Assembly (NCBI RefSeq): GCF_029245835.1
Contig: NZ_JAQWOO010000051.1
Span: forward strand, 1-60,068
Direction of reading: 5' to 3'
Length of the DNA: 60,068 bases
Source: Algibacter sp.
GTDB lineage: Bacteria; Bacteroidota; Bacteroidia; Flavobacteriales; Flavobacteriaceae
Shown: one piece after another, positions 6,021 through 42,787 of the stretch
Numbering within the stretch: position 1 is the first letter of the stretch
Layout: each line of letters begins with the position of its first letter
Program-made: the position numbers and the translations under genes
The notes under the pieces: generated by a model
Told to the model about the DNA's origin: nothing
Databases searched by the model: none
Seen by the model: the letters and a program-made list of their open reading frames with translations, nothing else

Positions 6021-6063
6021 TAAAGATACATTTGATATAATAAAGACGAAATGATAAGCATCA
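6021..6063 (-). promoter_or_regulatory. Regulon promoter for the HMA gene
   Basis: Box TGATAAGCATCA at 6052-6063 is followed on the minus strand by a 23-nt spacer and the -7 element TATCTTTA (6021-6028). The start codon is 24 bases further on. Confidence 0.8.
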
Positions 6064-6077
6064 GTCTTGGTAGAATA

Positions 6078-6485
6078 TTATATGGTTTCTTCTAAGAAAA
6101 ATTTAATAATATCCGCAGTTGAAACAATGCCTACTATTTTCTTGTTTTCAAGAATTGGAATGGCATGGTAATACCCCTTTGCTAAAACTTTAGCAGCATC
6201 TTCTATAGTTGCAGCAGTTGTTAAATAAAAAGGTTTTTGAGTCATTATATCTTTAACTTTTAACTCTTTATATATTTTATGCTCATCACTAATTCCAGCT
6301 CCAGAGATATGATACATAAAGTCTATTAAACTAACCATGCCTACTAGTGCTTCATTTTTAATTACAGGAATGTGATGATGCCATTTTTTTTTCTCATAGA
6401 TATGCTTGACATCTAAAAGATATTGCTCTGGAGAAATGCACACCACATTTTTAGTCATTATTGTTATTATCGAATTGGTTTTCAT
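6078..6485 (-). CDS. Two-CBS-domain protein
   Basis: A 135-residue protein made of a CBS pair only (Bateman module): about 8-60 and 75-133, each with the HHIPVIKN or YHAIPILENK core and a following GMVS or GIVS strand. Such pairs bind adenosine nucleotides (AMP, ATP, SAM) and report energy state, usually by docking on a partner. No partner domain is fused here. It is transcribed from one side of a shared box with the divergent 6600 gene. Stand-alone CBS proteins often sit in stress and hypoxia clusters together with universal stress proteins, as here. Confidence 0.92.
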   Translation of the reverse strand: MKTNSIITIMTKNVVCISPEQYLLDVKHIYEKKKWHHHIPVIKNEALVGMVSLIDFMYHISGAGISDEHKIYKELKVKDIMTQKPFYLTTAATIEDAAKVLAKGYYHAIPILENKKIVGIVSTADIIKFFLEETI

Positions 6486-6514
6486 TGACGAGAAATTATT
6501 GTTTTAAACTACCT

Positions 6515-6588
6515 TAAAAGTAGGTGATTAGTACCTGATCCAAAATGATATTAATCATTTTGGAATACGTTATTTGTCTTTATATTTA
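6515..6588. promoter_or_regulatory. Divergent regulon promoter sharing one box
   Basis: The box TGATATTAATCA (6546-6557) lies in a longer palindrome, CCAAAATGATATTAATCATT and onward. Rightward, 23 nt separate it from TATATTTA (6581-6588) for the 6600 gene. Leftward, 23 nt separate it from TACTTTTA (6515-6522, minus) for the CBS gene. One dimer could serve both directions. Confidence 0.85.
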
Positions 6589-6599
6589 TTTAAATACAA

Positions 6600-6974
6600 A
6601 TGGTTATGAAAACAAAAACAATTTTAGAGTTACTTACCTTAAGTTCGAGTCTTTATTATTTAGCAAAAGACACAAAATTTCTAGATAAAATAAATGAGTT
6701 TTCAGAAAAAGGGAAAAATAATTTCAATAATATCATGTCTGAATCTCAATTAGACGACAATGGAAATGAATTGGAATTTGCAGACAAAATAATTTTAAAA
6801 ACCCATGAATTAAAGGAAGAGCTAGATGAAAAAATAGAAGAACTTATTGTTAAGTTTTATAAAAAAATAAATGTGGCACATTTAGATGAAATTAAAGCTT
6901 TAAATGAAAAACTTGAAACACTTGACGCAACTGTTGCCTTGTTAGAGGCTAGGCTAAATAAAATGAAAGCATAA
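6600..6974 (+). CDS. Helical coiled-coil protein, phasin-like
   Basis: A 124-residue protein of unknown function. It is almost all predicted helix: an amphipathic start (about 5-45), an acidic linker with DDNGNELEFADK, and a C-terminal coiled coil (about 68-122, ALNEKLETLDATVALLEARL). The size and layout recall phasin-like granule or membrane-surface proteins, and the next gene is a UbiB-family kinase 4 bases downstream, so they are surely cotranscribed. I do not see a motif that settles the family. The start could also be the second Met, at 6606. Confidence 0.75.
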   Translation: MVMKTKTILELLTLSSSLYYLAKDTKFLDKINEFSEKGKNNFNNIMSESQLDDNGNELEFADKIILKTHELKEELDEKIEELIVKFYKKINVAHLDEIKALNEKLETLDATVALLEARLNKMKA

Positions 6975-6978
6975 AACG

Positions 6979-8682
6979 ATGGGAATCCTTACAGGTATTG
7001 GAAAGAATTTTAGATCTATCTCTAGGTACAACGAAATTCTTAAAGTTTTAATAAAATATGGCTTTGAAGATTTGGTAGACTATTTAGAAGAGAATAATCA
7101 ATATGCGTTTATGCGAAAACTAATTCCCAAAGCTTCAAGAAAAAATGCCTTAGCCTACAGCAAATGGGCTAAAATGAGATTGGTATGCGAAGAGTTAGGA
7201 CCAACGTTTGTGAAATTCGGACAAATTTTAAGTAACAGACCCGATTTAGTACCTTTAGAATTAACTTTTGAGTTAGAAAAACTTCATGACAATGTGCCAC
7301 CAATGTTAGAAAGTGTTGCTAAACAAATTGTAGAAACAGAATTAAAAGATACCGTAGAAAACTTATTTGCTTGGTTTGAGCCATCACCTTTTGCATCGGC
7401 ATCAATTGCACAAGTGCATCATGTAACTTTACACTCTGGTAAGCGTGTTGCTTTAAAAATTCAAAGATATGGCATTCAAGATATTATAGTAGAAGATATT
7501 AAGGCCATGTATAAAATTGCAGAAGTTTTAGAAAACAGAATACCTTCCTTAAAAAGCTTTGACCCTATTGGAATTGTTGAAAACTTTGAAGAATCCATAC
7601 TAAAAGAAATTGATTTTGTTAATGAATCTATTAATATTCAAAGGTTTTATAATAATCTGGAAAATGATGATACTTTAGATCAATTTGCTGAAGCTCCTAA
7701 AGTATATTCAGCTTTTACAACTTCAAAAGTTTTAGCTATGGAGTTTATTTCTGGAATTAAAATCAATCAAATAGACGAGTTAAAAGCTAAAAATTACGAC
7801 ACTAAAGTTATTGCTAGAAGGCTTACGATTAGCTATTTTAAACAAATTTTTGAATATGGTTTCTTCCATGCTGATCCACATCCAGGGAATTTATTGGTAC
7901 TCCCTAATGGACATATTTGTTACTTAGACTTTGGCATGATGGGAAGTATGCTCCCTCGAGATATTTCAATTTTCGGCAAATTATTCGTTGCTATAACAAA
8001 CAAGGACGTTAAAAATATAATTAAAACTTTACAACAGCTATCAAATAATGCGCCTATTCCAAATATGAGAGAATTAGAGTTTGATATCAATGAATTTGTA
8101 GAAAAATATTATGTGAGAGATATCCATGAAAATGAAATGAGTACGGTTTTATTAGAACTAAAAGATATTATCATTGCTCATGGTTTAAAAGTGCCTACTT
8201 ATTTTTTCCTTTTTGCTAGATCTTTAGTAACTGTTGAAGGTGTTATTAACAACCTAGATGCTAACTTGGAACAATTTGAAATTGCAAAACCATACCTAAA
8301 AACAAGTATCACGAAAAAATATAACCCTTTAAAAATAGGTAAGAAAGTTGCAAATTCTATTGTAGAGCTTGCAGATTATATGGAAGATTTTCCGTCAGAT
8401 TTAAAGAATGCGATACGCAAAATTAATTCTGGTCAGATAAAAGTAGACTTAACACATAAGGGTATAGACCCTATGGTGCATACATTACAAAGAATTACGA
8501 AACAGCTTATTACAACTTTTATTATGGTAGCTTTAATAATTGGGGCTTCATTATTTATAGTTTTTGAAATTCACCCGCTTTGGAAAAGTATATCTATATT
8601 AGGAATTTTAAGTTTTATTTTAGCAGTAATCTTAGGGTTTGCTGTTGTAATGAATATAAAAAAAGGGGATTATGATTATTAA
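6979..8682 (+). CDS. UbiB/ABC1 (AarF) family atypical kinase
   Basis: A 567-residue membrane-anchored atypical kinase-like ATPase of the UbiB/COQ8 family, which supports isoprenoid-quinone synthesis or lipid-related functions. The family signature K79-x-x-Q82 (TFVKFGQ), the Ala-rich loop ASASIAQVH (139-147), the ATP-binding Lys160 in RVALKIQ, the GFFHADPHPGN catalytic loop and the YLDFGMMG metal-binding motif are all present. Two transmembrane helices close the protein (about 505-560), as in UbiB. It is cotranscribed with the coiled-coil gene from a TGATN4ATCA promoter. Regulon control suggests a stress-specific paralogue rather than the housekeeping copy. Confidence 0.93.
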   Translation: MGILTGIGKNFRSISRYNEILKVLIKYGFEDLVDYLEENNQYAFMRKLIPKASRKNALAYSKWAKMRLVCEELGPTFVKFGQILSNRPDLVPLELTFELEKLHDNVPPMLESVAKQIVETELKDTVENLFAWFEPSPFASASIAQVHHVTLHSGKRVALKIQRYGIQDIIVEDIKAMYKIAEVLENRIPSLKSFDPIGIVENFEESILKEIDFVNESINIQRFYNNLENDDTLDQFAEAPKVYSAFTTSKVLAMEFISGIKINQIDELKAKNYDTKVIARRLTISYFKQIFEYGFFHADPHPGNLLVLPNGHICYLDFGMMGSMLPRDISIFGKLFVAITNKDVKNIIKTLQQLSNNAPIPNMRELEFDINEFVEKYYVRDIHENEMSTVLLELKDIIIAHGLKVPTYFFLFARSLVTVEGVINNLDANLEQFEIAKPYLKTSITKKYNPLKIGKKVANSIVELADYMEDFPSDLKNAIRKINSGQIKVDLTHKGIDPMVHTLQRITKQLITTFIMVALIIGASLFIVFEIHPLWKSISILGILSFILAVILGFAVVMNIKKGDYDY

Positions 8683-8710
8683 TTTCCCAAATCAAGAGGC
8701 TTAATTCTTA

Positions 8711-8748: not shown

Positions 8749-8760
8749 TTAATAAGATAT

Positions 8761-9363
8761 TTAGGGTTTGGAAAATGCTTTTTTAAAATGATCAAAAGCT
8801 TCAGTAATTTCATTTTGAAAATGCTCTAGTTTTGTTTCTTCTTTTTTCTTTCCATACTTGCCTTTAAACTTATCAATAAACGAATTAAAATCCTTTTTTC
8901 CTTTTTCAAAAGTATCTTTAGCTTCAATTTTATCCTTATTAAACTTTTGTTCTAATATCTCTAATTGAATTTTAAATTGTTCTATTTCAATTAAAGTTAA
9001 AGCATACATTCTATTTAAAGTGTCATTAGTTTTTATTTTAACTTCAATATCATGCAGTATTAAAAGTATTTGCTTTTTTTGTTTTTTAAAAATCTCCTTA
9101 GTCTCAGCTTTTCCTAGGGCTAATTGTACACGTAGTTCATCAAATTTTGTATTAAGCTCTTCTATTTTTTCTTTAATACCTTTTATTTTAAACTCACTGT
9201 CGTGAATAAATAGGTTAAATTTCTTTTTAACCTCCTCATACTTATCTTGTGCATCTGCTTTTCCTAAAGTGGCTTTTACTTGAAACTCCTCTAACTCTAC
9301 TGCGGTTTTTCTAAGGGCTCCTATAACTTTATCAACAAATTGAATGTCTTGTGTCTTTTTCAT
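8761..9363 (-). CDS. Repetitive coiled-coil protein of unknown function
   Basis: A 200-residue, highly charged, all-helical protein. It seems to be built of about three related units of some 50-60 residues. Each has a Gly-Lys-Ala or Lys-Ala acidic turn followed by a Lys-rich run and a hydrophobic FIHD or ILHD-type core: TLGKADAQDKYEEVKKKF, ALGKAETKEIFKKQKKQI and KIEAKDTFEKGKKDF. No signal peptide or membrane segment is visible. This looks like an antiparallel helical bundle or long rod. It has its own regulon promoter and a strong terminator, so it is a single-gene unit. I do not recognise the family. Confidence 0.8.
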   Translation of the reverse strand: MKKTQDIQFVDKVIGALRKTAVELEEFQVKATLGKADAQDKYEEVKKKFNLFIHDSEFKIKGIKEKIEELNTKFDELRVQLALGKAETKEIFKKQKKQILLILHDIEVKIKTNDTLNRMYALTLIEIEQFKIQLEILEQKFNKDKIEAKDTFEKGKKDFNSFIDKFKGKYGKKKEETKLEHFQNEITEAFDHFKKAFSKP

Positions 9364-9387: not shown

Positions 9388-9430
9388 TAAATATATGAGT
9401 AAAACTTAAATCACTAAATGATGACCATCA
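9388..9430 (-). promoter_or_regulatory. Regulon promoter for the 9363 coiled-coil gene
   Basis: Box TGATGACCATCA (9419-9430, plus-strand reading), 23-nt spacer, -7 element TATATTTA (9388-9395, minus). The last three bases of the box are also the stop codon of the upstream patatin gene, so box and coding end overlap. Confidence 0.8.
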
Positions 9431-10204
9431 GTTTTTGAAATTTTTTATTAAAAACCTATCATTAACTAGTGCTTTTTTGGTAGCGTCATAGCCAATTTTA
9501 AATATATCTTCAAGATATTTTTTATCAAAAATCCCATAATTATTTATTTCCTCTGGGGAAATAACTAAATCACAATCAATAAACTTTTTTTGATCGTCTT
9601 TAACCGATTTTAATTTAAATGCCCGCTCTAAAACGTGATAGGAGTGTTTTAAGTCATTAATTTTTATGGTATCAAAACCATTAACATAAACCCCAATAAT
9701 TTTGTCGCATGTTGGTTTTAATAATTCCACTGGAAAATTATTTAAGGCGCCACCATCAACATAATATGAATCTTTAATTTTTACTGGTGTAAATATCCCT
9801 GGAATGGCGGCAGATGCTAAAATGGGTTTAATTAATTCACCTTTATCAAAAACTTCTAAATTTCCATTTAAAATATTAGTGGCGGTAATATTTAATTTTT
9901 TTTTTAGAAAAGAAAAATCATCATCCTTCATATAATTTTTAAAATCTGAATAAAATTTTTCAGCATCGATAAAACCTGGCTTGTTTAGAGCGTATTTCGT
10001 TATATCTAAAATTTGAATGCCTTTAAAAAATTTGAAAATATCCTCCCATTTATTACCATAGGCATAAAGCGCGCCCACTATAGCTCCTGCACTTGTACCA
10101 GCAATATGAGTTGGATATATGTTGTGCTCTTCTAAAGCTTTTATTGCCCCAATATGGGCAGCACCTCGCATCCCTCCTCCAGATAATACTAAACCTATAT
10201 TCAT
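9428..10204 (-). CDS. Patatin-like phospholipase
   Basis: A 258-residue patatin-family lipid acyl hydrolase. The oxyanion-hole motif LSGGGMRG is at 7-14, the nucleophile elbow is GTSAG (36-40, Ser38), and the catalytic Asp150 lies in YVDGGALNNFP, giving the Ser-Asp dyad. No signal peptide is visible, so it should act in the cytoplasm or on the inner membrane face, releasing fatty acids from phospholipids. It has its own box promoter beside that of the divergent Mla-like lipid transport operon, which points to coordinated membrane-lipid upkeep. Confidence 0.93.
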   Translation of the reverse strand: MNIGLVLSGGGMRGAAHIGAIKALEEHNIYPTHIAGTSAGAIVGALYAYGNKWEDIFKFFKGIQILDITKYALNKPGFIDAEKFYSDFKNYMKDDDFSFLKKKLNITATNILNGNLEVFDKGELIKPILASAAIPGIFTPVKIKDSYYVDGGALNNFPVELLKPTCDKIIGVYVNGFDTIKINDLKHSYHVLERAFKLKSVKDDQKKFIDCDLVISPEEINNYGIFDKKYLEDIFKIGYDATKKALVNDRFLIKNFKN

Positions 10205-10221: not shown

Positions 10222-10316
10222 TAAAAGTAGGCCTAATTAGCCGCGAATACAATGATAAGCATCAGTAACTAAATGATTTTAATCATTTTATATCTAGTTG
10301 TGATGTTATAAATTTA
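10222..10316. promoter_or_regulatory. Back-to-back regulon promoters, two boxes
   Basis: Box A TGATAAGCATCA (10253-10264) gives, on the minus strand after 23 nt, TACTTTTA (10222-10229) for the patatin gene. Box B TGATTTTAATCA (10274-10285) gives, on the plus strand after 23 nt, TAAATTTA (10309-10316) for the lipid transporter operon. The box centres are 21 bp apart, two helical turns. Confidence 0.85.
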
Positions 10317-10336: not shown

Positions 10337-11107
10337 ATGCTGAAATTAACCAAAATAAAGGCGTTTTTAATTGAGATTGGTGAAATCACATATTTTGCTC
10401 GTCGGTTTTTTAAAGAACTATTTAAGAAGCCTTTCGAGTTTAATGAGTTATTAAGGCAGTGTTATAGTATAGGAAACAAATCCTTTTTACTGGTTGGCGT
10501 TACGGGTTTTATTATCGGTTTAGTAATAACCCTTCAAACGCGACCTACATTAGAAGAATTTGGAGCTGAATCTTGGATGCCTTCTATGGTAAGTATCTCA
10601 ATTATAAGAGAAATTGGCCCGGTAATAATAGCGTTAACTTTTGCAGGACGCATAGCCTCTGGAATAGGAGCAGAGTTAGGCTCTATGCGTGTTACTGAGC
10701 AAATTGATGCCATGGAAGTTTCGGGTACAAATCCTTTTAAATATTTAGTAGTTACAAGAATTTTAGCCACCACATTAATGCTGCCTATATTAGTCATTTT
10801 TGGAGATGCCATTGCACTTTATGGGGCTTTCATTATTGAAAACACCAAAGGAGATGTATCGTTTCAATTATTCTTTAATAAAGTATTTAATGCACTGGAA
10901 TTTGGAGATATTATTCCCGCAACTATTAAAACATATTTCTTTGGATTTGCTATCGGCCTTGTAGGGTGTTTTAAAGGTTATTACTGCAAAAAAGGAACTG
11001 TTGGTGTGGGTTTAGCAGCAAATTCCGCAGTGGTATTTTCATCCATGTTACTTTTTATAATTGACTTTATTGCGGTATTTATAACCGATATATTTTTTGA
11101 AATTTAA
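10337..11107 (+). CDS. MlaE-type ABC transporter permease
   Basis: A 256-residue integral membrane permease of the MlaE/YrbE family. It works with an MlaF-type ATPase and an MCE protein to move phospholipids between inner and outer membranes. Five to six hydrophobic helices are visible, with the family stretch REIGPVIIALTFAGRIASG (about 91-109) and ELGSMRVTEQIDAMEVSG right after it. The C-terminal FFGFAIGLVGCFKGYYCKKG also fits. It is first in a three-gene operon, 3 bases before the ATPase gene. Confidence 0.95.
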   Translation: MLKLTKIKAFLIEIGEITYFARRFFKELFKKPFEFNELLRQCYSIGNKSFLLVGVTGFIIGLVITLQTRPTLEEFGAESWMPSMVSISIIREIGPVIIALTFAGRIASGIGAELGSMRVTEQIDAMEVSGTNPFKYLVVTRILATTLMLPILVIFGDAIALYGAFIIENTKGDVSFQLFFNKVFNALEFGDIIPATIKTYFFGFAIGLVGCFKGYYCKKGTVGVGLAANSAVVFSSMLLFIIDFIAVFITDIFFEI

Positions 11108-11110
11108 AAG

Positions 11111-11890: not shown

Positions 11891-11996
11891 ATAAAATGTA
11901 ATAATCATGTAATGAGATATGCATGTAATTTAATATCAACAAATATGTTGAGTAACGAATTACATATAACAATTGAAAACCAATAAAAAAGACCAG

Positions 11997-13949: not shown

Positions 13950-13992
13950 CAAATTTATAGTATTGCTAGAGTTGTTGAAATGATATTTATCA
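13950..13992 (-). promoter_or_regulatory. Regulon promoter for the 13930 Usp gene
   Basis: Box TGATATTTATCA (13981-13992), 23-nt spacer, and on the minus strand the perfect Bacteroidota -7 element TAAATTTG (13950-13957). Confidence 0.85.
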
Positions 13993-16187: not shown

Positions 16188-16230
16188 CCAAGATATTTTA
16201 TAAACGTTTTTAATCCAATGATATAAATCA
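16188..16230 (-). promoter_or_regulatory. Regulon promoter for the PNPOx operon
   Basis: Box TGATATAAATCA (16219-16230), 23-nt spacer, -7 element TATCTTGG (16188-16195) on the minus strand. The start codon is 19 bases downstream of the -7 element. Confidence 0.8.
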
Positions 16231-16885: not shown

Positions 16886-16928
16886 TAAAAATAAAGGATG
16901 TTTTTAAAAATATATATGAGGGAAGTCA
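16886..16928 (-). promoter_or_regulatory. Weak regulon promoter for the CDP-alcohol transferase
   Basis: TGAGGGAAGTCA (16917-16928) keeps only the TGA-N6-TCA core, but a -7 element TATTTTTA (16886-16893, minus) lies exactly 23 nt away, as in the good sites. The exact spacing is the reason I accept it. Confidence 0.6.
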
Positions 16929-19097: not shown

Positions 19098-19140
19098 TAA
19101 AGCTAGTTAATAGATGTTTTAATACATATGACGAATATCA
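19098..19140 (-). promoter_or_regulatory. Regulon promoter for the P1B ATPase, long leader
   Basis: Box TGACGAATATCA (19129-19140, one outer base off), 23-nt spacer, -7 element TAGCTTTA (19098-19105, minus). The start codon is about 134 bases downstream. The sequence around this promoter resembles that at 22700-22742. Confidence 0.75.
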
Positions 19141-21064: not shown

Positions 21065-21107
21065 TAAAGTTAAGATTGAAAATGTGTTTACGAAATGATA
21101 TATATCA
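21065..21107 (-). promoter_or_regulatory. Regulon promoter for the GNAT/YoaP gene
   Basis: Box TGATATATATCA (21096-21107), 23-nt spacer, -7 element TAACTTTA (21065-21072, minus). Rightward at 23 nt there is only TTGTTTTG, so I do not claim a divergent promoter for the 21352 gene. Confidence 0.85.
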
Positions 21108-22699: not shown

Positions 22700-22742
22700 T
22701 AAAGTTAGCTGATAGATGTTATACTAAAAATGATAGATATCA
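22700..22742 (-). promoter_or_regulatory. Regulon promoter for the lipoprotein gene, long leader
   Basis: Box TGATAGATATCA (22731-22742), 23-nt spacer, -7 element TAACTTTA (22700-22707, minus). About 132 bases separate it from the start codon. Flanks resemble those of the ATPase promoter at 19098-19140. Confidence 0.8.
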
Positions 22743-24679: not shown

Positions 24680-24722
24680 TAAAAATAATTTTTAAAAAGT
24701 TCATCTGAAATGAGATATATCA
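24680..24722 (-). promoter_or_regulatory. Regulon promoter for the CbpA/CbpM operon
   Basis: Box TGAGATATATCA (24711-24722, one outer base off), 23-nt spacer, -7 element TATTTTTA (24680-24687, minus). The start codon is 27 bases further on. Confidence 0.75.
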
Positions 24723-29617: not shown

Positions 29618-29660
29618 CTAAAATAATGTCTTTAAATCTATTACAAAATGATATTCATCA
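29618..29660 (-). promoter_or_regulatory. Regulon promoter for the WG/site-2 protease operon
   Basis: Box TGATATTCATCA (29649-29660), 23-nt spacer, -7 element TATTTTAG (29618-29625, minus). It lies in the short gap after the thioredoxin stop codon. Confidence 0.8.
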
Positions 29661-30794: not shown

Positions 30795-30869
30795 TAAAGT
30801 TACATACTTTTTAACATAATATATATGATATAAATCAGTATAATTAATGACAATTTTTTCGTACTTTTA
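30795..30869. promoter_or_regulatory. Divergent regulon promoter of the LOV kinase and the TerB operon
   Basis: Box TGATATAAATCA (30826-30837). Leftward, 23 nt to TAACTTTA (30795-30802, minus) for TerB/DUF302/thioredoxin. Rightward, 24 nt to TACTTTTA (30862-30869) for the kinase and its regulator; this is the only 24-nt case in the set. The regulator therefore probably controls its own synthesis. Confidence 0.8.
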
Positions 30870-30894: not shown

Positions 30895-32775
30895 ATGTTT
30901 AAACAAGACCAAGAAATATTCAATATTCTTCTAGAAACTGTTTCTGAGGCGGTTATTATTGTTGATAATCACCAAAAAATAATGGAAGTAAATATAGCTG
31001 CAGAAGACATTTTTGGTTACAAAAAAAAGGAGTTTATTGGCAAGGAATTAAACTTGCTTATGCCATCACATTACCATGATAGTCTTTTAGAGTATTTTGA
31101 AAAATTTATTCATAGAGGCAAGCGTCGAAAAATGGGTGCTGCTACAGATATTTATGGCTTAAAAAAAGATGCTACTATTTTTCCAATTGAGGTTGAATTA
31201 AACCCGTTTTCCATTTATAACAAAACCTATGTTATGGCTTTGGTTAAAGATGTGTCTGAAAAGAAAAGCATAGAAAAAAAATTGTTGCTAAAAAGTAGAG
31301 CGTTAGAATCTGTTAACAACGGAATTATTATAACAGATGCTTTAAAAAAAGATAATCCTGTTATTTATTTTAATTCGGCTTCTCAAAAGCTTACCGGTTA
31401 CCCTAGTGAAGAAATACTTAATAATAATTGTAGAATTTTACAAGGTAAAGATAGGAACCAAATACCTCTTAAAAAGCTTAGAAAGGCCATTAAAAATGGA
31501 GAAAGTTGTCAAGTCACTTTACGTAATTATAAAAAAGACGGTACACTGTTTTGGAACGATTTATACATTATGCCTATTATTAATAATGAAGGTGTTGTTA
31601 CAAATTTTATTGGAATACAGAATGATGTTACAAGTCGTAAAAAAGCTGAAGATGAGCGCCAACATCTGGCTACCATTTTTGATGAATCATTAAATGAAAT
31701 TCATGTTTTTGATGCAGAAACATTAAATTTTATAAATGTGAATTTTGGTGCCCAAAAGAATCTTGGATATACTATGGATGAATTAATTAATATGACACCT
31801 TTAGATATAACACCATACAAAGATGAATTTGAATTTAGAGAGACAATTGATGTTTTATTTGATAAGAATGTTGAAAAATTAGAGATTGAATCGATTCAAC
31901 GACGAAAAGATGGCACCAAGTATCCTGTTGAAGTTCATTTACAGCTATCAAATTTAGGAGAAAAAAAGGTTTTTGTTGCCATCCTTTTGGATATTACAGA
32001 GCGGAAAAATTACACGAGCAAGCTTGAAAACAAAGTAGAAGAAAGAACAGAGCAACTAAAAATGGCTTTAAGTAAAGAAAAAGAACTCAATGAGCTAAAA
32101 ACAAAATTTTTGTCTTTAGTCTCTCATGAATTTAAAACACCCTTAAGCGGGATTTTAACATCGAGCCAGCTACTTAGTAAATATCAATTAACCGAACAAC
32201 AAGAAAAACGCGATAAACACATAAAAAGAATAACCGATAAAGTTCATTTTTTAGATAATATTCTAAACGATTTTTTATCCATTGAAAATTTAAACACTGG
32301 GAAAGTAAATTATAGGTTTATTCATTTTAAAATAAGTAAAGTTGTTAATGAGGTGGTATATAATGCTAATATGCTTTTAAAAGAAGGGCAGCAAATAAAT
32401 TACCCTGAAAATATAGACGATTTATCACTTTATCAAGATGAAAAAATCATTCAATTAATATGCTCAAATTTATTACATAATGCTATAAAATATTCTCCAG
32501 AAGGTACTGTTATAGATTTACATATTAAACAAGACGATAAGTTTACTACCTTAACAATAAAAGACGAAGGGATGGGTATTCCAGAAAAAGACCAGAAACA
32601 TATTTTTGAACGTTATTTTAGAGCTGAAAATGTTATGAATACTCAAGGTACAGGCATTGGTTTAAACATAGCTAAAACACATTTAGAAAACTTAGGCGGA
32701 ACTATTTCTTTTGAAAGTATAGAAAATAAAGGCACAACATTCATTATAACGCTTCCTAATATTGTAGCACAATGA
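30895..32775 (+). CDS. LOV/PAS sensor histidine kinase
   Basis: A 626-residue cytoplasmic histidine kinase with no transmembrane helix. It has three PAS-type domains: PAS1 (about 7-125), a LOV domain (about 135-250) and PAS3 (about 255-370), then a coiled coil, HisKA with phospho-acceptor His411 (LVSHEFKTPLS), and an ATPase domain with NLLHNAIKYSP, DEGMGIP and GTGIGLNIAK. The LOV domain has NCRILQG with the photoactive Cys179, Arg180, Gln183, Arg196, Asn211 and Asn221, and Gln242 in GIQNDVT; these match the FMN-contacting positions of known LOV proteins such as YtvA. So it should sense blue light, and perhaps flavin redox state. Its stop overlaps the regulator gene start (32772). Confidence 0.95.
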   Translation: MFKQDQEIFNILLETVSEAVIIVDNHQKIMEVNIAAEDIFGYKKKEFIGKELNLLMPSHYHDSLLEYFEKFIHRGKRRKMGAATDIYGLKKDATIFPIEVELNPFSIYNKTYVMALVKDVSEKKSIEKKLLLKSRALESVNNGIIITDALKKDNPVIYFNSASQKLTGYPSEEILNNNCRILQGKDRNQIPLKKLRKAIKNGESCQVTLRNYKKDGTLFWNDLYIMPIINNEGVVTNFIGIQNDVTSRKKAEDERQHLATIFDESLNEIHVFDAETLNFINVNFGAQKNLGYTMDELINMTPLDITPYKDEFEFRETIDVLFDKNVEKLEIESIQRRKDGTKYPVEVHLQLSNLGEKKVFVAILLDITERKNYTSKLENKVEERTEQLKMALSKEKELNELKTKFLSLVSHEFKTPLSGILTSSQLLSKYQLTEQQEKRDKHIKRITDKVHFLDNILNDFLSIENLNTGKVNYRFIHFKISKVVNEVVYNANMLLKEGQQINYPENIDDLSLYQDEKIIQLICSNLLHNAIKYSPEGTVIDLHIKQDDKFTTLTIKDEGMGIPEKDQKHIFERYFRAENVMNTQGTGIGLNIAKTHLENLGGTISFESIENKGTTFIITLPNIVAQ

Positions 32776-33827
32776 AAACAATTTTACTCATAGAAGATGA
32801 TGCGGTTTTAAGAGAAAACACAGCAGAGCTTTTGGAATTATCTAGTTATAAAGTTATAACAGCTTCAAATGGAAAAACAGGAGTTATATTAGCTAAAAAA
32901 CATCAGCCTGATATTATAGTTTGTGATATCATGATGCCCGAACTTGATGGTTACGGCACTCTTAAAAAGCTTTCAAAAAGCAAACATACAAAGTCTATTC
33001 CTTTCATTTTTTTATCTGCTAAAACAGAGCGTAGCGATGTTAGAAAAGGGATGAATTTAGGTGCAGACGATTATATAACAAAACCATTTTCAGAAGATGA
33101 CCTTATAAGTGCTATTGAGAGTCGTTTAGCAAAAGTTTCCATTTTAAAAGAATTGAATAACAATGAAGCGAGTTATCCTATTTTAAACGATGAGAATGAA
33201 ATAAAAACACTTAACGATTTAAAAAATTTCTTTGATGATTTTGGTACTGAATTCCCTTTTAATACAGAGGATATTATTTACCATGAAGGCGATCATTCTA
33301 ATTATATTTACTTAATTAGCTATGGCACCGTAAAATGTTATAGGATAGATGAACAAGGAAAAGAATTGGTAACTGCACTCTACAAAGAAGATGATTTATT
33401 TGGATATATCTCTTTTACGCAAAACATACCGCACCAAGAAACAGCAACAGCATTAGCAAATACTAAATTATTAGGGATTTCAATTATTGATTTTAATAAC
33501 TTACTCAGTAAAAATCATAAGGTTCTTATGGAGCTTATAGAGCTTTTAACAGGCGATTTATCTCTAGCTAAAGAACAACTACTCCATATGGCTTATGCTA
33601 CAGTTAACAAAAAAACAGCAGCTACAATTTTAAAATTTGCCGAAAAAATAAACCGTAAACCAGACGACGTTATAAAAATTTCTAGAAACGATTTAGCCAG
33701 TGTTGCAGGAATTGCTACCGAAACATTAATAAGAGCACTTGCTGAATTTAAAAAACAAGGCATCATAAAATCTGAAGGCAGAAATATTAAAGTCGTAGAT
33801 ATTCAAAAATTAAAAAGTATCATGTAG
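32772..33827 (+). CDS. Response regulator: receiver plus Crp/Fnr-type DNA-binding module
   Basis: A 351-residue transcription factor. The receiver domain (about 2-120) has Asp9/Asp10, phospho-acceptor Asp52 (VCDIMMPELDG), Ser82 and Lys104. A cyclic-nucleotide-binding fold follows (about 155-245), then a helix-turn-helix of Crp/Fnr type (about 303-335, ISRNDLASVAGIATETLIR). The recognition helix has Glu317 and Arg321 at the positions of FNR Glu209 and Arg213, while Ile320 stands where FNR has Ser212. There are only two Cys residues, so an FNR-type iron-sulfur cluster is excluded. It overlaps the LOV kinase gene by 4 bases and is the obvious reader of the TGATN4ATCA boxes. Confidence 0.95.
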   Translation: MKTILLIEDDAVLRENTAELLELSSYKVITASNGKTGVILAKKHQPDIIVCDIMMPELDGYGTLKKLSKSKHTKSIPFIFLSAKTERSDVRKGMNLGADDYITKPFSEDDLISAIESRLAKVSILKELNNNEASYPILNDENEIKTLNDLKNFFDDFGTEFPFNTEDIIYHEGDHSNYIYLISYGTVKCYRIDEQGKELVTALYKEDDLFGYISFTQNIPHQETATALANTKLLGISIIDFNNLLSKNHKVLMELIELLTGDLSLAKEQLLHMAYATVNKKTAATILKFAEKINRKPDDVIKISRNDLASVAGIATETLIRALAEFKKQGIIKSEGRNIKVVDIQKLKSIM

Positions 33828-33850: not shown

Positions 33851-33893
33851 TGATTAATATCATTTTGTGTCTAACAACTTCACTTTAAATTAG
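33851..33893 (+). promoter_or_regulatory. Regulon promoter for the 33915 Usp gene
   Basis: Box TGATTAATATCA (33851-33862), 23-nt spacer, -7 element TAAATTAG (33886-33893). It begins 24 bases after the regulator stop codon. Confidence 0.85.
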
Positions 33894-34754: not shown

Positions 34755-35141
34755 ATGGACAATTCAATTTTTTTAGCAAAGTTTTGGGGATGGTATCTCA
34801 TCATATTTTTTATGATATTAAGTTTTAATCCAAAACGGATAAAGCAGATTTTTAATGATTTAGAAGACGAGAAATTTCTAATAATTTCGTCTTTTATGGC
34901 CATTAACGTGGGATTACTAAATGTTTTGTTCCATAATATATGGGAGCCAAACTGGAAGCTTATTATTACCCTTATAGGTTGGATTTCACTATATATAGGA
35001 TTGTCTCTATTTATACTTCCTAAGCGAACCACTGCGGTATTAAAGTTTATTAATATAAAATTAGTCCAGGTTATTTACACCTTATTATTTTTAATAGGTT
35101 TGTTTTTGTTGAATATTGTATATGAAATTGTACCTATATAA
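34755..35141 (+). CDS. Four-helix membrane protein of unknown function
   Basis: A 128-residue protein with four predicted transmembrane helices (about 9-24, 44-62, 68-88 and 103-124), separated by short basic or acidic loops (RIKQIFNDLEDEKF, LPKRTTAVLKF). It lies 3 bases after the Usp stop codon, so it is cotranscribed. I recognise no family. Nothing suggests a transporter or enzyme, so I leave the function open. Confidence 0.7.
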   Translation: MDNSIFLAKFWGWYLIIFFMILSFNPKRIKQIFNDLEDEKFLIISSFMAINVGLLNVLFHNIWEPNWKLIITLIGWISLYIGLSLFILPKRTTAVLKFINIKLVQVIYTLLFLIGLFLLNIVYEIVPI

Positions 35142-35152: not shown

Positions 35153-35195
35153 TGATGGATATCATTTTGTATTAAGATTTTGTAATGTAAATTAG
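35153..35195 (+). promoter_or_regulatory. Orphan regulon promoter with no gene behind it
   Basis: Box TGATGGATATCA (35153-35164), 23-nt spacer, -7 element TAAATTAG (35188-35195). It fully fits the regulon pattern but the next annotated gene is 600 bases away and has its own promoter. Confidence 0.8.
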
Positions 35196-35199
35196 CACT

Positions 35200-35420
35200 A
35201 TAATTAAAACGTTCTTATCGCATATTAGAAGTCTAAAAAAAAAAATCTAGGTGTTGTTGTTGCAAAACAATAATGCCGAAACAAAGTGTTTGAAGCTATT
35301 GTTTGGCAGGAAAACCCAGATATTATGTTTAGTAATAAATGTAATATTGTAGAAAACCGAAAGCTCAATGATGACATTAAATACTTTGGAAAAACAGGAG
35401 GTTTCGACGTCCTGTTTTTT
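35200..35420 (+). ncRNA. Candidate regulon-controlled small RNA
   Basis: The stretch between the orphan promoter (35153-35195) and the hairpin terminator (35391-35420) would give a transcript of about 220 nt. It carries no convincing coding frame. The start at about 35200 is inferred from the promoter, not seen directly. It is either a small RNA or a poorly visible small protein gene. Confidence 0.5.
35391..35420 (+). terminator. Intrinsic terminator 1 of the gene-free stretch
   Basis: Stem AAAACAGGA / TCCTGTTTT (35391-35399 and 35410-35418), 10-nt loop, then T-run. It would end the orphan transcript. Confidence 0.75.
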
Positions 35421-35567
35421 AAAAAAAAGCAGCGTTTTTCATTGTAAAATGTTTAATACTGTTTAGAGATGTTTGGCGGTATAAATTTACTGAAGATTTA
35501 GTATAACTTTATTAGGGATATTAATGATTAGAAAAGGTTAGTTAATAAAATCAAACATTTCAAAAAG

Positions 35568-35595
35568 GAAACAGGAAGTTTAGGCTTCCTGTTTC
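35568..35595 (+). terminator. Hairpin 2 of the gene-free stretch
   Basis: Stem GAAACAGGAAG / CTTCCTGTTTC (35568-35578 and 35585-35595) with a 6-nt loop. It has almost the same core sequence as hairpin 1, so the two may be duplicates. The following T-run is weak. Confidence 0.6.
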
Positions 35596-35643
35596 TTACA
35601 TTTAAAGGGTGGCTATTAATCAATTCACATATTAAATGTGAAT

Positions 35644-35679
35644 AAAAAAGGGAATGTTTTTTTAACAATTCCCTTTTTT
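35644..35679. terminator. Hairpin 3, strong intrinsic terminator
   Basis: Stem AAAAAAGGGAAT / ATTCCCTTTTTT (35644-35655 and 35668-35679), 12 bp perfect, with long T-runs on one side. It isolates the next Usp promoter from upstream transcription. The 35142-35792 gap holds no other gene I can support. Confidence 0.85.
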
Positions 35680-35729
35680 TTTTAAAACCAAATTGTTACT
35701 ACCAAAAGCAAGTTAGTAATGATGTAATC

Positions 35730-35772
35730 TGATATATATCATTGTAATAAGTCCGTTAAGTATGTAATTTGG
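35730..35772 (+). promoter_or_regulatory. Regulon promoter for the Usp pair at 35793
   Basis: Box TGATATATATCA (35730-35741), 23-nt spacer, -7 element TAATTTGG (35765-35772). Confidence 0.85.
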
Positions 35773-36641: not shown

Positions 36642-36651
36642 ATTTACTATC

Positions 36652-37494: not shown

Positions 37495-37590
37495 ATTGTA
37501 AAAAGAGCCATAGTCGTAATTTGATATCAAACAAAAATGTTTAGAGACGAATTACAGCTGAAAATTAGAAAACAAGAAAAACAACTACAG

Positions 37591-38418
37591 ATGAAACGAA
37601 AAATTTTATTACCCACAGATTTTTCAGATAATGCCTGGAGCGCTGCTGTTTATGCCTTAAAACTTTATACAGATGAAGAATGTTCGTTCTATTTTTTACA
37701 CGCTTTAATTATAGTAGGTGCACCCTTCGAAGACCTTTCAAACAAACTTTTAAAAACAATGGAGGAAGATGCTATGAATGAGTTATTAGATTTGAAAGCA
37801 TTGGCAGAACGTGGAAACGCTAATGCAAATCATGATTTTCATATCATTTTAAGTACTAAGGATTTAAATACGGCCATTAAGGATGCGATTAAAAAACATG
37901 ATATTAACTTAATAATTATGGGCACTAAAGGGGCAACAGGAGCAAAAGAATTTTTCTTTGGAAGCAATACCGTTCGGGTTATTAATAAAGCTAATTGTCC
38001 TGTTTTATTAATACCAGAGGACTATGATTTTATTGAACCAAAACAAATTGCTTTCCCAACAGATTATAACCGGTTTTATGATATTAAGGAAATTGAACCT
38101 TTAGTGCAGTTAACCAATTTATATGATTCAAAAATAAGGATTGTACACATTAATGAGAAAGAGGAACTCAATGATGTTCAAGATTATAATTTAATGGAAC
38201 TCCAAAGCCATTTAAACGATTATGATTATAGCTTGCATTGGATGCCAAATTACGCTAAAAAAGTAGTAGAAATCAATGATTTTATTGAAGAATTAGATAT
38301 TGATATACTAGTCATGGTAAATTATAAACATAGTTTTATTGAAAAAATAGTCAAGGAGCCTGTAATAAAAAAAATAGGATTCCAATCTAAAATTCCGTTT
38401 TTGGTTATCCCAGAATGA
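37591..38418 (+). CDS. Universal stress protein, tandem UspA domains
   Basis: A 275-residue Usp. I start it at ATG 37591 (MKRKILLPTDFSDNAWSA), because the longer in-frame start at 37537 adds a charged N-terminal stretch not found in any of the paralogues. The first domain keeps the GTKGATGAKEFFFGSNTVRV loop. It follows the previous Usp by 96 bases with no box promoter, so it is most likely read through from the 35793 promoter. Its stop codon is 3 bases before the box of the next Usp promoter. Confidence 0.92.
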   Translation: MKRKILLPTDFSDNAWSAAVYALKLYTDEECSFYFLHALIIVGAPFEDLSNKLLKTMEEDAMNELLDLKALAERGNANANHDFHIILSTKDLNTAIKDAIKKHDINLIIMGTKGATGAKEFFFGSNTVRVINKANCPVLLIPEDYDFIEPKQIAFPTDYNRFYDIKEIEPLVQLTNLYDSKIRIVHINEKEELNDVQDYNLMELQSHLNDYDYSLHWMPNYAKKVVEINDFIEELDIDILVMVNYKHSFIEKIVKEPVIKKIGFQSKIPFLVIPE

Positions 38419-38420
38419 AC

Positions 38421-38463
38421 TGATAGATATCATTGTTAACTACAATTTGTAAAGGTAAATTTA
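38421..38463 (+). promoter_or_regulatory. Regulon promoter for the 38490 Usp gene
   Basis: Box TGATAGATATCA (38421-38432), 23-nt spacer, -7 element TAAATTTA (38456-38463). It starts right after the stop codon of the preceding Usp gene. Confidence 0.85.
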
Positions 38464-38489: not shown

Positions 38490-39344
38490 ATGAAACGCAA
38501 AATATTACTACCTACAGATTTTTCTAAAAATGCTTGGCATGCTATAATTTACGCCTTAGAGTTGTATAAGAATGAGCATGTAGATTTTTATATTTTGAAT
38601 GTTTTTTTTCCTGCGGATAGCATTATGAGTAGTTTGATAAATATGGAACCAGGTAGCGAAATGTATGAAACTGCAAAATTAAATTCTGAAAACAGTTTGG
38701 CTAAAGTTATGGATATGATAGCTTTTAGAGATTATGACAACTCCAAACATCATTTTGAAACTATTTCGAAGTTTAACGGTGTAGTTGAAGTTATTAAAAA
38801 TGTAGTTGAAGAAAAAGATATAGAACTCATTATTATGGGGACTAAGGGTAAGACAGATTCTAAAGCAAAAGTTTTTGGTGGTGTGGCTATTCACATAATG
38901 GAAAAAGTAAGAAACTGCCCGGTTATAGTCGTGCCAGAACAAGCAAAACATCACTTACCAAAAGAAATTGTTTTCCCTACTAGTTTTAAAACTCATATCA
39001 AGAGAAGAGAACTTAGTTATTTGATTGATTTGACTAAAAATTGCAATGCCTCTATTAGGATTTTGCATGTAGCTAATGAAAACAAATTGAGCAAAAAACA
39101 ACTCAGTAATAAAACTTTATTAAAAGAATATTTTGAAGGTATACCGCATACATTCCACACGCTAAGTCATATAGAAATACCTGCTGCTATCATTTGCTTT
39201 ATTGAAAGTAGAGAAAGTGATATGGTAGCCTTTATAAATAAGAAACACGCTTTTTTTGGAAGTATACTAAGCAACCCATTGGTTAAGAAAATTGGTTACG
39301 AATCTAAGGTTCCCATATTCGTAATGCACGATTTAAGAAACTGA
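38490..39344 (+). CDS. Universal stress protein, tandem UspA domains
   Basis: A 284-residue Usp that starts MKRKILLPTDFSKNAWHAII. The loop is GTKGKTDSKAKVFGGVAIHI, so the second Gly and the final Ser/Thr of the ATP motif are changed. It is the most diverged of the five tandem paralogues in that loop. It may lead an operon into the release-factor-like gene (66 bases downstream) and further genes. It has its own box promoter. Confidence 0.92.
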   Translation: MKRKILLPTDFSKNAWHAIIYALELYKNEHVDFYILNVFFPADSIMSSLINMEPGSEMYETAKLNSENSLAKVMDMIAFRDYDNSKHHFETISKFNGVVEVIKNVVEEKDIELIIMGTKGKTDSKAKVFGGVAIHIMEKVRNCPVIVVPEQAKHHLPKEIVFPTSFKTHIKRRELSYLIDLTKNCNASIRILHVANENKLSKKQLSNKTLLKEYFEGIPHTFHTLSHIEIPAAIICFIESRESDMVAFINKKHAFFGSILSNPLVKKIGYESKVPIFVMHDLRN

Positions 39345-39824: not shown

Positions 39825-39864
39825 CTTTTATTTAGGAGTCTATTCAAATTTTACAACACTAAAA

Positions 39865-40707: not shown

Positions 40708-40896
40708 GGCTAAACTTATATTTTTATTTGAGAGTCATTTTTTATGAAGTAAGCGTATAATAGGTGTAATAATTAAATGGACTTTTAAATTTAAGAAGTT
40801 TTTAATCGTTTATATTTTTTTCTATTAGTTTTTAGTTTAGCTGTATGCTTGAGAGGATTTTAGGATTTTTTTTAAATAAGAAGAAGATATGTTAAC

Positions 40897-42270
40897 ATGA
40901 AAAAATTTGTTAAAATACATTTTTTAGGAGCATCAGGTGTGGTTACGGGGTCTAAATTTCTTATTGAAACTTCAGAAAAAAACATCTTGATAGATTGTGG
41001 TATGTTTCAAGGTTTAAAAGAATTAAGGGCACTTAATTGGAGTGATTTACCCGTTAATGTTAATAAAATAGATACCGTATTGCTTACCCATGGGCATTTG
41101 GATCATGTTGGCTATTTACCACGATTATTAAAACAAGGTTTTACAGGTAAAATTATAGGAACTGCACCCACACTGGCTATTGCAGAAATAATATTGAAAG
41201 ACAGCGCTAAAATTCATGAAGAAGAAGCCAAAAAAGCCAATAAAGAGAAATACACCAAGCACAATCCTGCATTACCTTTTTATACCAAATTTGAAGCTGA
41301 AAAGATTATAAGACAATTTCATGTTGAAATGCTTAATACATGGATACCGCTTTCAGAAAATATATCCTATCGTTTTCAGTATAACGGACATATTATTGGC
41401 GCAACTTTTATTGAATTGGATATCAACGGAAAACGATTTGTGTTTTCTGGAGATATTGGTAGACCTCATGATTATTTATTAGATAATCCTAAGAAACCCG
41501 AATGGGCAGACTATTTGTTTATTGAAAGCACCTACGGAAACAAATTGCATCCCGATGAAAATATTGAAGACGTTCTAACTCAAATTATTACCGAAATCAT
41601 TCATAAAAAAGGAAATTTAATCATTCCTAGTTTTGCTGTAGAGCGTTTACAAACACTCATGTATGTGCTTTGGCAACTCTATAAAAAAAATAAGATACCA
41701 AACATTCCCATTTTTATTGATAGCCCAATGGGAAATAATGTTTTAGAAGTTTTTAAGCGATTTCCTAAATGGCATAAATTATCAATGGCAGATTATAATG
41801 CCATGTGCAGCCATATAAATATTATTCAATCTTATAAAGAAACCTGGGAAACCATTGACGATAAACGTTCTAAAATAATTATTGCAGGTAGCGGTATGGT
41901 AACAGGTGGTCGCGTTTTAACTTATTTACAACAACTTATTGATGAGCCATCAACTACTGTGCTTCTAGTAGGCTATCAAGCGGAAGGCACCAGAGGGAGA
42001 CAATTACAAGAAGGCGTGCACGAAATACGCTTTTTTGGTAAATACTACCCCGTAAAAGCAACGATAAAAAATATAGAAAGTTTATCGGCACATGCAGACC
42101 AAAACGATTTATTAAACTGGATGAGTGCCATTAAAAATATTCCAGAACAGGTGTTTTTAATTCATGGTGAATCAACTGCTTTAGATGCCTTTCGATTAAA
42201 AATACAAGATACTTACAACTGGCAGGTTACCATTCCAAAACTTACAGACGTTAAAAAAGTGATGATATAA
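40897..42270 (+). CDS. MBL-fold/beta-CASP ribonuclease
   Basis: A 457-residue metallo-beta-lactamase-fold nuclease of the CPSF/Ysh1 and RNase J relatives. Zinc ligands are His65-x-His67-x-Asp69-His70 (LLTHGHLDHVG), a downstream GHIIGATFIELD, FSGDIGRPHD, and HADQNDLLNW near the end. The beta-CASP domain includes IPSFAVERLQTLMYVL and IIAGSGMVTGGR. It should cleave RNA, 5'-3' or as an endonuclease. Stand-alone enzymes of this type are common in stress clusters with Usps and Hsp20. It is 18 bases upstream of the next, unknown gene. Confidence 0.95.
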   Translation: MKKFVKIHFLGASGVVTGSKFLIETSEKNILIDCGMFQGLKELRALNWSDLPVNVNKIDTVLLTHGHLDHVGYLPRLLKQGFTGKIIGTAPTLAIAEIILKDSAKIHEEEAKKANKEKYTKHNPALPFYTKFEAEKIIRQFHVEMLNTWIPLSENISYRFQYNGHIIGATFIELDINGKRFVFSGDIGRPHDYLLDNPKKPEWADYLFIESTYGNKLHPDENIEDVLTQIITEIIHKKGNLIIPSFAVERLQTLMYVLWQLYKKNKIPNIPIFIDSPMGNNVLEVFKRFPKWHKLSMADYNAMCSHINIIQSYKETWETIDDKRSKIIIAGSGMVTGGRVLTYLQQLIDEPSTTVLLVGYQAEGTRGRQLQEGVHEIRFFGKYYPVKATIKNIESLSAHADQNDLLNWMSAIKNIPEQVFLIHGESTALDAFRLKIQDTYNWQVTIPKLTDVKKVMI

Positions 42271-42288
42271 TCTTCAAACATCAAAATC

Positions 42289-42705
42289 ATGGAAACAATA
42301 AAAACTTATAAAAGCTTTACAGAGCATAAATCTATAGAAGAATTGCAATACAATATATTAACAGATTTAACCAGTATTGAAAATATAAAATTTGAGCTTA
42401 AATTTTACAAATTATTATTAGAAAAACCCATTTTTAAATCTCATGTATTTAATTTATATGAAACGCTTGTTAGGTTTAAAAAAGAAATAAAGACGTTAGA
42501 GGAAAATAGTCAGGATTTACTAAATCAATTAAACTCGCATGCCAAACAACTTAGAGTTAAAATGGAATGCGAAGATATGGTTTGCGATAATTTTTTCATT
42601 AAAACACATGATGCAATAAAACAAAAAACATTCAACTTTAAGACTACAGTTTTCAATTTTAAATTTAGACTATTTCAGTATGTAGAAGGTGTAATTATTA
42701 ATTAA
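42289..42705 (+). CDS. Small helical protein of unknown function
   Basis: A 138-residue all-helical protein with a pattern of amphipathic heptads: YKSFTEHKSIEELQYNIL, then NIKFELKFYKLLLEKPIF, a coiled coil (ETLVRFKKEIKTLEENSQDL) and a C-terminal helix with FNFKTTVFNFKFRLFQYVE. It has no signal or membrane segment. It resembles the proteins at 24201 and 43465 in size and layout but identity is low, so a family link is only a possibility. It is cotranscribed with the ribonuclease gene. Confidence 0.7.
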   Translation: METIKTYKSFTEHKSIEELQYNILTDLTSIENIKFELKFYKLLLEKPIFKSHVFNLYETLVRFKKEIKTLEENSQDLLNQLNSHAKQLRVKMECEDMVCDNFFIKTHDAIKQKTFNFKTTVFNFKFRLFQYVEGVIIN

Positions 42706-42744
42706 AAGTTATAAATAAAAACTTCAATAAATCACTTTTCTGAC

Positions 42745-42787
42745 TGATATATATCATTGTAAAAACCTGTTTATGTAAGTATATTAA
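42745..42787 (+). promoter_or_regulatory. Regulon promoter for the Hsp20 gene
   Basis: Box TGATATATATCA (42745-42756), 23-nt spacer, -7 element TATATTAA (42780-42787). The start codon is 36 bases downstream. Confidence 0.8.

Follow-up and report, generated by a model that had tools for sequence, protein, structure and literature searches.

Which regulator governs the stress genes that surround a repeated FNR-like palindrome, TGATN4ATCA, in Algibacter sp. (Flavobacteriaceae), and are these palindromes parts of true promoters? They occur in a stretch of 60,068 nucleotides (nt), contig NZ_JAQWOO010000051.1, here called the window; it is one contig (C27) and represents 1.8% of a 3.36-Mb genome in 100 contigs. 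A two-component system encoded there, consisting of a PAS-LOV-PAS sensor kinase and a response regulator of the Crp/Fnr superfamily (gene at 32772, hereafter REC-CRP), would control the island of stress genes and an array of small RNAs in the class II mode. Judging from sequence comparisons, we give this reading a probability of about 70%. In what follows a perfect box is TGATN4ATCA, the wider box is TGAYN4RTCA, and distances are counted from the box to a TAnnTT -7 element.

The initial annotation had proposed 19 boxes serving 21 promoters, all at a fixed distance from their -7 elements. Its 16 perfect boxes are all present, compared to a mean of 1.86 in dinucleotide shuffles (largest 6; none of 100 reached 16). 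When these boxes are read in both orientations (32 oriented boxes), a TAnnTT lies at 23 nt in 17 of them, and the kinase promoter alone has it at 24 nt; any other distance between 5 and 59 nt yields at most three. The expected number at any one distance is 0.38 (Poisson P ~2e-22 for the 23-nt count), so that spacing beyond chance was rightly claimed, as were the two boxes that work in both directions, 6546 and 30826. The total of 21 promoters is reached once three imperfect boxes (16917, 19129 and 24711) are added. Boxes with one or two mismatches carry TAnnTT 10, 15 and 12 times at 22, 23 and 24 nt (37 listed), an excess of only a few, and support for these three is weaker than for the perfect ones; among them only 19129 (TGAT..GTCA) matches the wider box found in relatives. 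Under the -7 convention, the constant 23 nt would place the box centre near -41.5. By its spacing in the window and in 80 related loci, this is a genuine promoter architecture of predicted class II Crp/Fnr-like type.

The related loci surround relatives of the regulator (1.56 Mb in total; the best 80 of 582, named Flavobacteriaceae or close). Their 606 oriented boxes lead to 238 TAnnTT at 23 nt and 18 at 24 nt, and other distances average 8.7. Five control palindromes, far rarer (62-84 oriented), give 0-3 at 23 nt. The promoter logo reads aaCTGATaaATATCATttt-N-TAnnTTt[A/G], with a T directly after the box in 96%, and wider forms add 50 promoters at 23 nt (TGAC..GTCA) plus 71 and 89 (mixed). 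A gene was found behind 212 of the 238 promoters, and from TA to its ATG there is a median of 31 nt, the middle half lying between 27 and 36. First genes behind the boxes were scanned in a random draw of 148 from the 208 distinct ones of at most 700 amino acids (aa): 58 encode universal stress proteins (Usp), 6 DnaJ/CbpA-like proteins, 6 Hsp20, 4 MlaE and 3 proteins of the S30AE ribosome-hibernation type. Since Usp, Hsp20, DnaJ/CbpA-like and S30AE proteins stand first, the programme appears dormancy- or stress-like across the 80 loci. The link to stress operons noted earlier thus stands in general, with the exception of promoter 35153, which precedes the RNA array.

REC-CRP belongs to the Crp/Fnr superfamily by its Pfam matches (PF00027 and PF13545) and to two-component systems by its receiver with Asp52 and the adjoining kinase gene. 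A kinase-like open reading frame (ORF) ends at the regulator start in 79 of the 80 relatives (L066 has an ORF of only 143 aa; none was found in L100). The protein is not an iron-sulfur FNR, having 2 Cys in 351 aa and a receiver domain at its N-terminus. CRP contacts cyclic AMP through Glu72, Arg82 and Ser83; REC-CRP carries other residues at the aligned positions (PDB alignment, read by eye). Its E..R recognition helix lines up with that of FNR in the FNR/CRP alignment, and REC-CRP is the likely activator of the boxes.

The sensor input had been overlooked: the kinase carries a LOV domain, absent from the initial annotation, whose best match to blue-light receptors has an E of 6e-32. The adduct Cys and the flavin-contact Asn, Asn and Gln of LOV photoreceptors are all there (Table 1), and we presume for these residues the photochemical roles of LOV biochemistry. 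Blue light, or the flavin redox state, is thus a likely additional input. Light is not the core signal of the whole family, because the LOV cysteine motif occurs in just 13 of 79 kinase ORFs (a few cut at contig ends) and the adduct cysteine is lost in the LOV-type kinase of L042 (Aestuariibaculum). LOV is a ~115-aa insert between two PAS domains in the alignment of relatives, most of whose kinases have one or two PAS domains only; on a tree of 100 regulators the LOV label requires 5 changes, L042 counted as LOV. Such a distribution, together with the Leu that replaces the LOV glutamine in L039, L040 and L047, would suit a flavin module that serves a redox or structural purpose, or is a relic, and plays no part in light sensing. 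Speaking against this are the four photochemical residues, intact both in the window kinase and in the 969-aa kinase of a second system on contig C61, and the LOV cysteine motif in 9 of the 11 kinases beside type-2-like regulators, C61 included. We consider that a LOV domain blind to light has a sizeable chance of being correct, short of even.

Thirteen loci have regulators about as distant as that of C61; an adjacent kinase was found in 10 and the LOV motif in 8. The LOV-less L132 and L133 also branch apart on the regulator tree. At L147:13969-15459 the kinase ORF is only 496 aa long, lacks the LOV cysteine motif and has a box promoter ~460 nt upstream; by its sequence, this frame appears to be interrupted or mis-called. 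The first PAS domain of the window kinase resembles DosP/FixL (best E 6.7e-13); at the position of the FixL heme ligand it reads Leu by eye, so that the proximal heme histidine seems to be missing.

A scan of the whole genome for the 23-nt architecture gave 40 sites (reversed-pattern control 2), 17 in the 60-kb window versus 23 in the remaining 3.3 Mb. Density is thus far from equal elsewhere. Perfect boxes regardless of spacing occur at 146 places, versus 83 for the backwards-read pattern. The idea of a single 37-kb regulon did not hold, as further sites are spread over the genome and C61 holds a second island that has a regulator of its own. Sites cluster at both REC-CRP genes (TGATN4ATCA: 17 in the window, 6 on C61); with the wider box, 80 sites at 23 nt (control 2) divide into 18 on C27, 25 in C61:51183-103706 and 37 elsewhere. 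The second island surrounds a paralogous LOV-kinase/REC-CRP pair and has its own RNA array (loci L125, L126 and L127 span C61 60000-110244). Its genes encode pyruvate phosphate dikinase, BON, flavin reductase, DUF2267 and CheB/CheR proteins (Pfam) and Usp-like proteins (by eye). TGACN4GTCA makes up 13 of the 25 C61 sites and none of the 18 window sites (Fisher P 1.6e-4). Its commonest form in the second island is TGACCTAGGTCA (6 of 13), which two RNA-array promoters of C61 carry, a third having a 13-base variant. Since TGACN4GTCA is common on C61 and absent from the window sites, the paralogous systems differ in their commonest boxes yet keep the geometry.

Targets outside the window, read by eye, include Usp genes and genes for 2-oxoacid:ferredoxin oxidoreductases, which are accompanied by a ferredoxin. 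Others encode proteins that resemble, again by eye, a pyruvate phosphate dikinase, a channel and a ligase, the last with a CBS domain; a flavin reductase was named by Pfam. An outside site on C16, within a 615-aa frame, is probably a chance match, and C61:80296 overlaps the start of a called frame.

Is REC-CRP the only protein acting on the box? The genome encodes seven HTH_Crp_2 proteins, of which four share an E-x-x-I-R helix: two are the REC-CRPs of the window and of C61, and two are stand-alone proteins that have cysteines at the N-terminus. The helix is missing from the remaining three, L122 and L124 among them. We compared 149 family genomes, Algibacter included, by raw site counts uncorrected for genome size or completeness. 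The median number of sites per genome is 1.5 with neither regulator (n = 28), 7.0 with FNR only (55), 9.5 with REC-CRP only (30) and 13.5 with both (36); REC-CRP only differs from neither at P 1e-6, and the reversed-pattern control averages 1.2 with REC-CRP and 1.5 without. Because medians rise with either protein, REC-CRP and the cysteine-bearing FNR appear to share one box in one position, and control of the box is probably shared between them. The 32772 regulator, singled out earlier as the protein to bind the boxes, remains the prime candidate, without being exclusive, as the FNR-like protein tracks the same box family-wide. REC-CRP also reaches beyond the family (43 of 296 sampled phylum genomes, Algibacter included, at E 1e-60).

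These data bear on the possibility that the island is simply part of an ordinary oxygen-sensing FNR regulon based on an Fe-S protein, with REC-CRP binding elsewhere or at few sites. Algibacter has an FNR-like protein with N-terminal cysteines and a compatible helix, such a protein occurs in 91 of the 149 family genomes, those with FNR only reach a median of 7 sites, and 30 site loci of eight REC-CRP-less genomes include PFOR/Kor-ferredoxin, CBS, HPF and Usp-like genes (by eye). A plain FNR regulon nevertheless fails to account for the 30 genomes that have REC-CRP, no FNR and a median well above that of genomes with neither, or for the concentration of sites at both REC-CRP genes under either form of the box. 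The flank of the window boxes, ATCATT, also stands apart: T is found at +13 in 94% of the 17 sites, versus 45% of the 20 out of 23 outside sites with T at +12. We regard an FNR-only island as unlikely. As a signature to tell REC-CRP from FNR sites the flank was rejected, the differences at +13 and -1 being too small for single-site calls.

Promoter 35153 is followed by no protein gene: no frame of at least 60 aa precedes the next promoter (longest 53 aa), and the longest ATG frame on the plus strand of the RNA region has 34 aa. The segment consists of two RNA units and a third conserved element, with fold z scores, relative to shuffled sequences, of -4.94 (35194-35425), -6.55 (35425-35600) and -3.55 (35600-35695). 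The RNA model R2, built with both units included, matches unit 1 at E 2.4e-29 and unit 2 at E 6.3e-24; the motif of the third element was found in 11 of 20 sources scanned. Alignment A7 (MAFFT; 32 units from the window and relatives, pairwise identity 45-91%) omits sixteen weaker units, that of C61 among them, and the shared unit of L068/L211. Its structure comprises 41 pairs, 26 with changes on both sides, and 93.5% of cells are paired. Both-side changes fill 141 cells, compared to 44.7 in shuffled and 25-41 in slid alignments, a large margin; the structure, derived from A7 itself, is somewhat favoured by this count. The hairpin and stem upstream of the terminator (helices 1-4) covary on their own. 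There were no Rfam matches at the gathering score in the window and six related loci; 18 weak matches below it, many on terminators or the other strand, were taken as chance, and opposite-strand R1/R2 hits were not counted, being echoes of palindromic terminators. The RNA family is thus well supported and without Rfam match.

In the Algibacter genome, RNA hits better than E 0.2 are confined to two places, the window array and C61:72647-73650, which adjoins the second REC-CRP; those on C59, C46, C39 and C9 are weaker and look like chance. The RNA units are therefore not a dispersed repeat. Across the family set the RNA was found in 18 genomes (E up to 1e-3), 17 of which have REC-CRP (Fisher P 3e-6), and 27 of the 35 copies counted lie within 3 kb of a REC-CRP gene. 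Copies farther away occur in G125 (479 kb), G120 (37 kb) and G108 (9 kb), and no REC-CRP was found in G138. The 35 copies are those kept from 46 rows, after dropping ten on the opposite strand and a short one located on another contig (G124:C22). This search used stricter filters that lose weak matches, and a 17-source R2 search did not list the two window units (E 2e-29 and 6e-24 in another run), so that batch RNA counts are lower bounds. A wider-form box promoter at 23 nt lies within 330 nt upstream of the first unit at 30 of 33 RNA loci, the others being L044, L136 (contig edge) and L139. The 33 loci were picked from hit lists (one array is represented twice, and one pair of loci shares an identical unit); hits outside them include at least L099, L113, L131, L209/L224, L218 and L219. 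Among the 80 loci, a plus-strand R2 match (E 0.01) is found in 15, making the array a common, not universal, companion. R2 gave nothing at E 0.1 in 38 other loci (sites of REC-CRP-less genomes, rRNA loci and own-genome sites). LOV and RNA array occur together in 9 of 13 LOV loci versus 5 of 64 others, the rows being close kin and not independent (L059 and L066, with incomplete kinases, and L100, with none found, are omitted).

That the units at 35245-35601 are a terminator or attenuator region, or a repeat element, and not trans-acting RNAs is quite improbable: they are indeed flanked on both sides by Usp transcription units and have terminators at their ends, but they have their own class II promoter, conserved at most RNA loci, covary independently upstream of the terminator and encode no long frame.

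A leader motif, GTTCTT, lies at 35211-35216 (GTTCTTA in the window copy). Among the 447 box promoters of the 80 loci, 13 have GTTCTTT 16-21 nt past the TAnnTT end, where ~5 are expected by chance anywhere in a 60-nt stretch, and all 13 have an RNA-model hit close downstream, weak in L083 (E 0.007) and L113 (E 0.003). In four relatives, nine rrn leaders show motifs of the GTTCAT type, located 113-162 nt ahead of 16S; the Algibacter genome itself gave no 16S match. These positions are suggestive of a boxA-like antitermination signal and go no further.

Several observations weigh against assigning the island to REC-CRP, apart from the patchy LOV domain. As four of the seven HTH_Crp_2 proteins share the E-x-x-I-R helix, sequence alone does not suffice to assign any promoter of the window. 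Three genomes with neither regulator (G048, G138 and G147) hold 10-15 sites; therefore further regulators exist or some were missed. The architecture persists in genomes that lack REC-CRP, at some genes of the Usp, CBS and HPF-like kinds (by eye). TGACN4GTCA is also present outside the second island (8 of the 37 sites elsewhere). Only 19 of 77 kinase genes of relatives carry a box promoter, and the RNA family is limited to 18 of 149 genomes, one of them (G138) without REC-CRP found.

From the computed features (boxes, spacing, domain make-up, RNA covariation and synteny), we infer the following sequence of phosphorylation, binding, activation, transcription starts, light sensing and RNA function for REC-CRP control of the island. 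The kinase would relay blue light, along with a second PAS signal, to Asp52; once phosphorylated at this residue, the regulator would bind TGATN4ATCA centred near -41.5. Bound there, it would act as a class II activator on promoters of the Bacteroidota TAnnTT type, in which the -7 element begins 23 nt past the box. Genes for Usp, Hsp20, lipid transport and redox functions would be turned on in this way, as would the regulator's own operon and the RNA array, whose products may act in trans as sibling small regulatory RNAs, spreading the response post-transcriptionally. A separate FNR on the same box would add overlapping low-oxygen control, and the C61 pair would run a parallel island where TGACN4GTCA boxes are frequent, with its own RNA array. 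A fuller version we advance only tentatively and think rather unlikely to hold in all its parts. In it, a family of light-tuned, two-component FNR-like master regulators of Flavobacteriaceae would drive a dormancy-type regulon together with the RNA siblings, a boxA-like leader GTTCTTT at the start of each array would carry transcription past internal terminators, light or oxygen would set both the choice of stress proteins and the number of siblings, and the paralogues would have partly split their specificity (TGATN4ATCA versus TGACCTAGGTCA) with the 23 nt kept.

Class II activation by E. coli FNR/CRP shares the palindromic TGAT half-site, the centre near -41.5 and the E..R helix; the window regulator differs by its receiver, by lacking Fe-S cysteines and cAMP residues, and by the Bacteroidota TAnnTT promoter. 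Two-component control, many Usp genes, Hsp20 and CBS proteins are also features of the mycobacterial DosR/DevR dormancy regulon. DosR is of the LuxR/NarL type with a different box and heme kinases, whereas the window has a LOV kinase and a regulator carrying HTH_Crp_2, not a LuxR/NarL-type domain, and is thus no member of the DosR regulon. LOV histidine kinases of Brucella and other Alphaproteobacteria are likewise tied to stress response; their output runs via the general stress response, while the window kinase pairs with an adjacent REC-CRP regulator. PhyR is part of that alphaproteobacterial output. Enterobacterial FnrS is also a small RNA under an FNR-type activator; the window differs in having a tandem series of branched RNAs that covary, each carry a terminator and have no Rfam match at the gathering score. 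The parts are thus known in kind (Crp/Fnr activation, two-component control, LOV kinase, small RNA). Literature searches limited to open papers brought up nothing on this regulon, the RNA family or a REC-CRP/LOV pair, nor on the combination and its partly split specificity.

If correct, the proposal would give Bacteroidota a DosR-like regulon defined at the sequence level, and since box and exact distance define its members, these could be listed in any genome. It would also tie transcription control of the FNR type to the architecture of a blue-light receptor, a link that to our knowledge is unusual. Wherever the RNA family occurs, its promoter, its partner regulator and its position in the genome are largely conserved, and paralogous systems with partly different boxes would make the evolution of Crp/Fnr specificity testable.

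Table 1. Boxes, promoters and other features of the window.
Feature	Coordinates	Strand	Description
Box	6052..6063	-	23 nt to TATCTT; 79-aa ORF 31 nt past start of -7 element
Box	6546..6557	both	CBS protein 6078-6485 (-); 124-aa protein and ABC1 kinase 6600-8682 (+)
Box	9419..9430	-	serves 8761-9363 (200 aa, without Pfam match)
Box	10253..10264	-	serves patatin-like protein 9428-10204
Box	10274..10285	+	serves MlaE/ABC ATPase/MlaD-like operon 10337-12983
Box	13981..13992	-	serves Usp 13043-13930
Box	16219..16230	-	two PNPOx-like proteins and DUF6920 protein, 16169 to 14115
Imperfect box (2 mismatches), weak	16917..16928	-	before CDP-alcohol phosphatidyltransferase 16255-16866
Box TGAT..GTCA	19129..19140	-	before P-type ATPase 16961-18964
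Box	21096..21107	-	serves GNAT/YoaP-like protein 20279-21043
Box	22731..22742	-	serves 22062-22568, starting 139 nt past start of -7 element
Imperfect box (1 mismatch), weak	24711..24722	-	before 24201-24653
Box	29649..29660	-	WG-repeat protein and M50-CBS protease, 29599 to 27909
Box, 23 nt	30826..30837	-	30363-30773 and DUF302 29962-30366
Box, 24 nt	30826..30837	+	kinase-regulator operon
Sensor histidine kinase	30895..32775	+	626 aa, PAS-LOV-PAS-HisKA-HATPase, H-box His411
LOV domain	31291-31638		~residues 133-248; adduct Cys179, Asn211, Asn221, Gln242
Response regulator	32772..33827	+	351 aa: REC (Asp52), cyclic nucleotide (cNMP)-binding fold, HTH_Crp_2; overlaps kinase stop by 4 nt
Box	33851..33862	+	serves Usp 33915-34751 and 34755-35141
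Promoter, box at 35153	35153..35193	+	TGATGGATATCA, 23 nt, TAAATT; drives noncoding RNA array
Noncoding RNA unit 1	35245..35424	+	5' hairpin, long interrupted stem, terminator hairpin ~35393-35420
Noncoding RNA unit 2	35427..35601	+	architecture of unit 1, own terminator
Third conserved array element	35611..35685	+	GGCTATTAATC and terminator
Box	35730..35741	+	three Usp genes, 35793-38418
Box	38421..38432	+	Usp 38490-39344
Box	42745..42756	+	Hsp20 42823-43341

The kinase-regulator operon is possibly autoregulated via the 30826 box, and the 38421 operon may run on through ATP-cone/Mrr-like and beta-CASP genes to 42705. No box promoter, perfect or wider, was seen in the window before 6000 or beyond 42800, which leaves both the peptidase and the restriction island outside the regulon, in line with the initial annotation. 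The restriction island (45808-54718), without box promoters, encodes type I restriction-modification proteins HsdM, HsdS and HsdR; the genes for the latter two are separated by one that encodes a Fic domain.

In relatives, arrays are closed by GGCTATTAAT[CT], often then a terminator, as seen in the window and in L040-L045, L053, L059, L143 and L149. In L042 the closing motif lies behind the corresponding promoter, yet no RNA unit was found there. The array of G125 (C1:3867110-3867945), with four units, is relocated and still has a box promoter upstream (L203).

The 24-nt exception at the kinase promoter recurs in relatives: the 19 kinase promoters with a box place it at 24 nt in 15 cases, at 23 nt in three and at 22 nt in one. 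In ten of them (L076, L089, L093, L094, L099, L102, L103, L106, L108 and L111; six Aquimarina, three Flavobacteriaceae and one metagenome-assembled genome of Bacteroidia) the box is 24 nt from TAnnTT and the TA is only 12 nt before the ATG. As the next in-frame ATG is 219-243 nt away, these ten kinase messages are probably leaderless.

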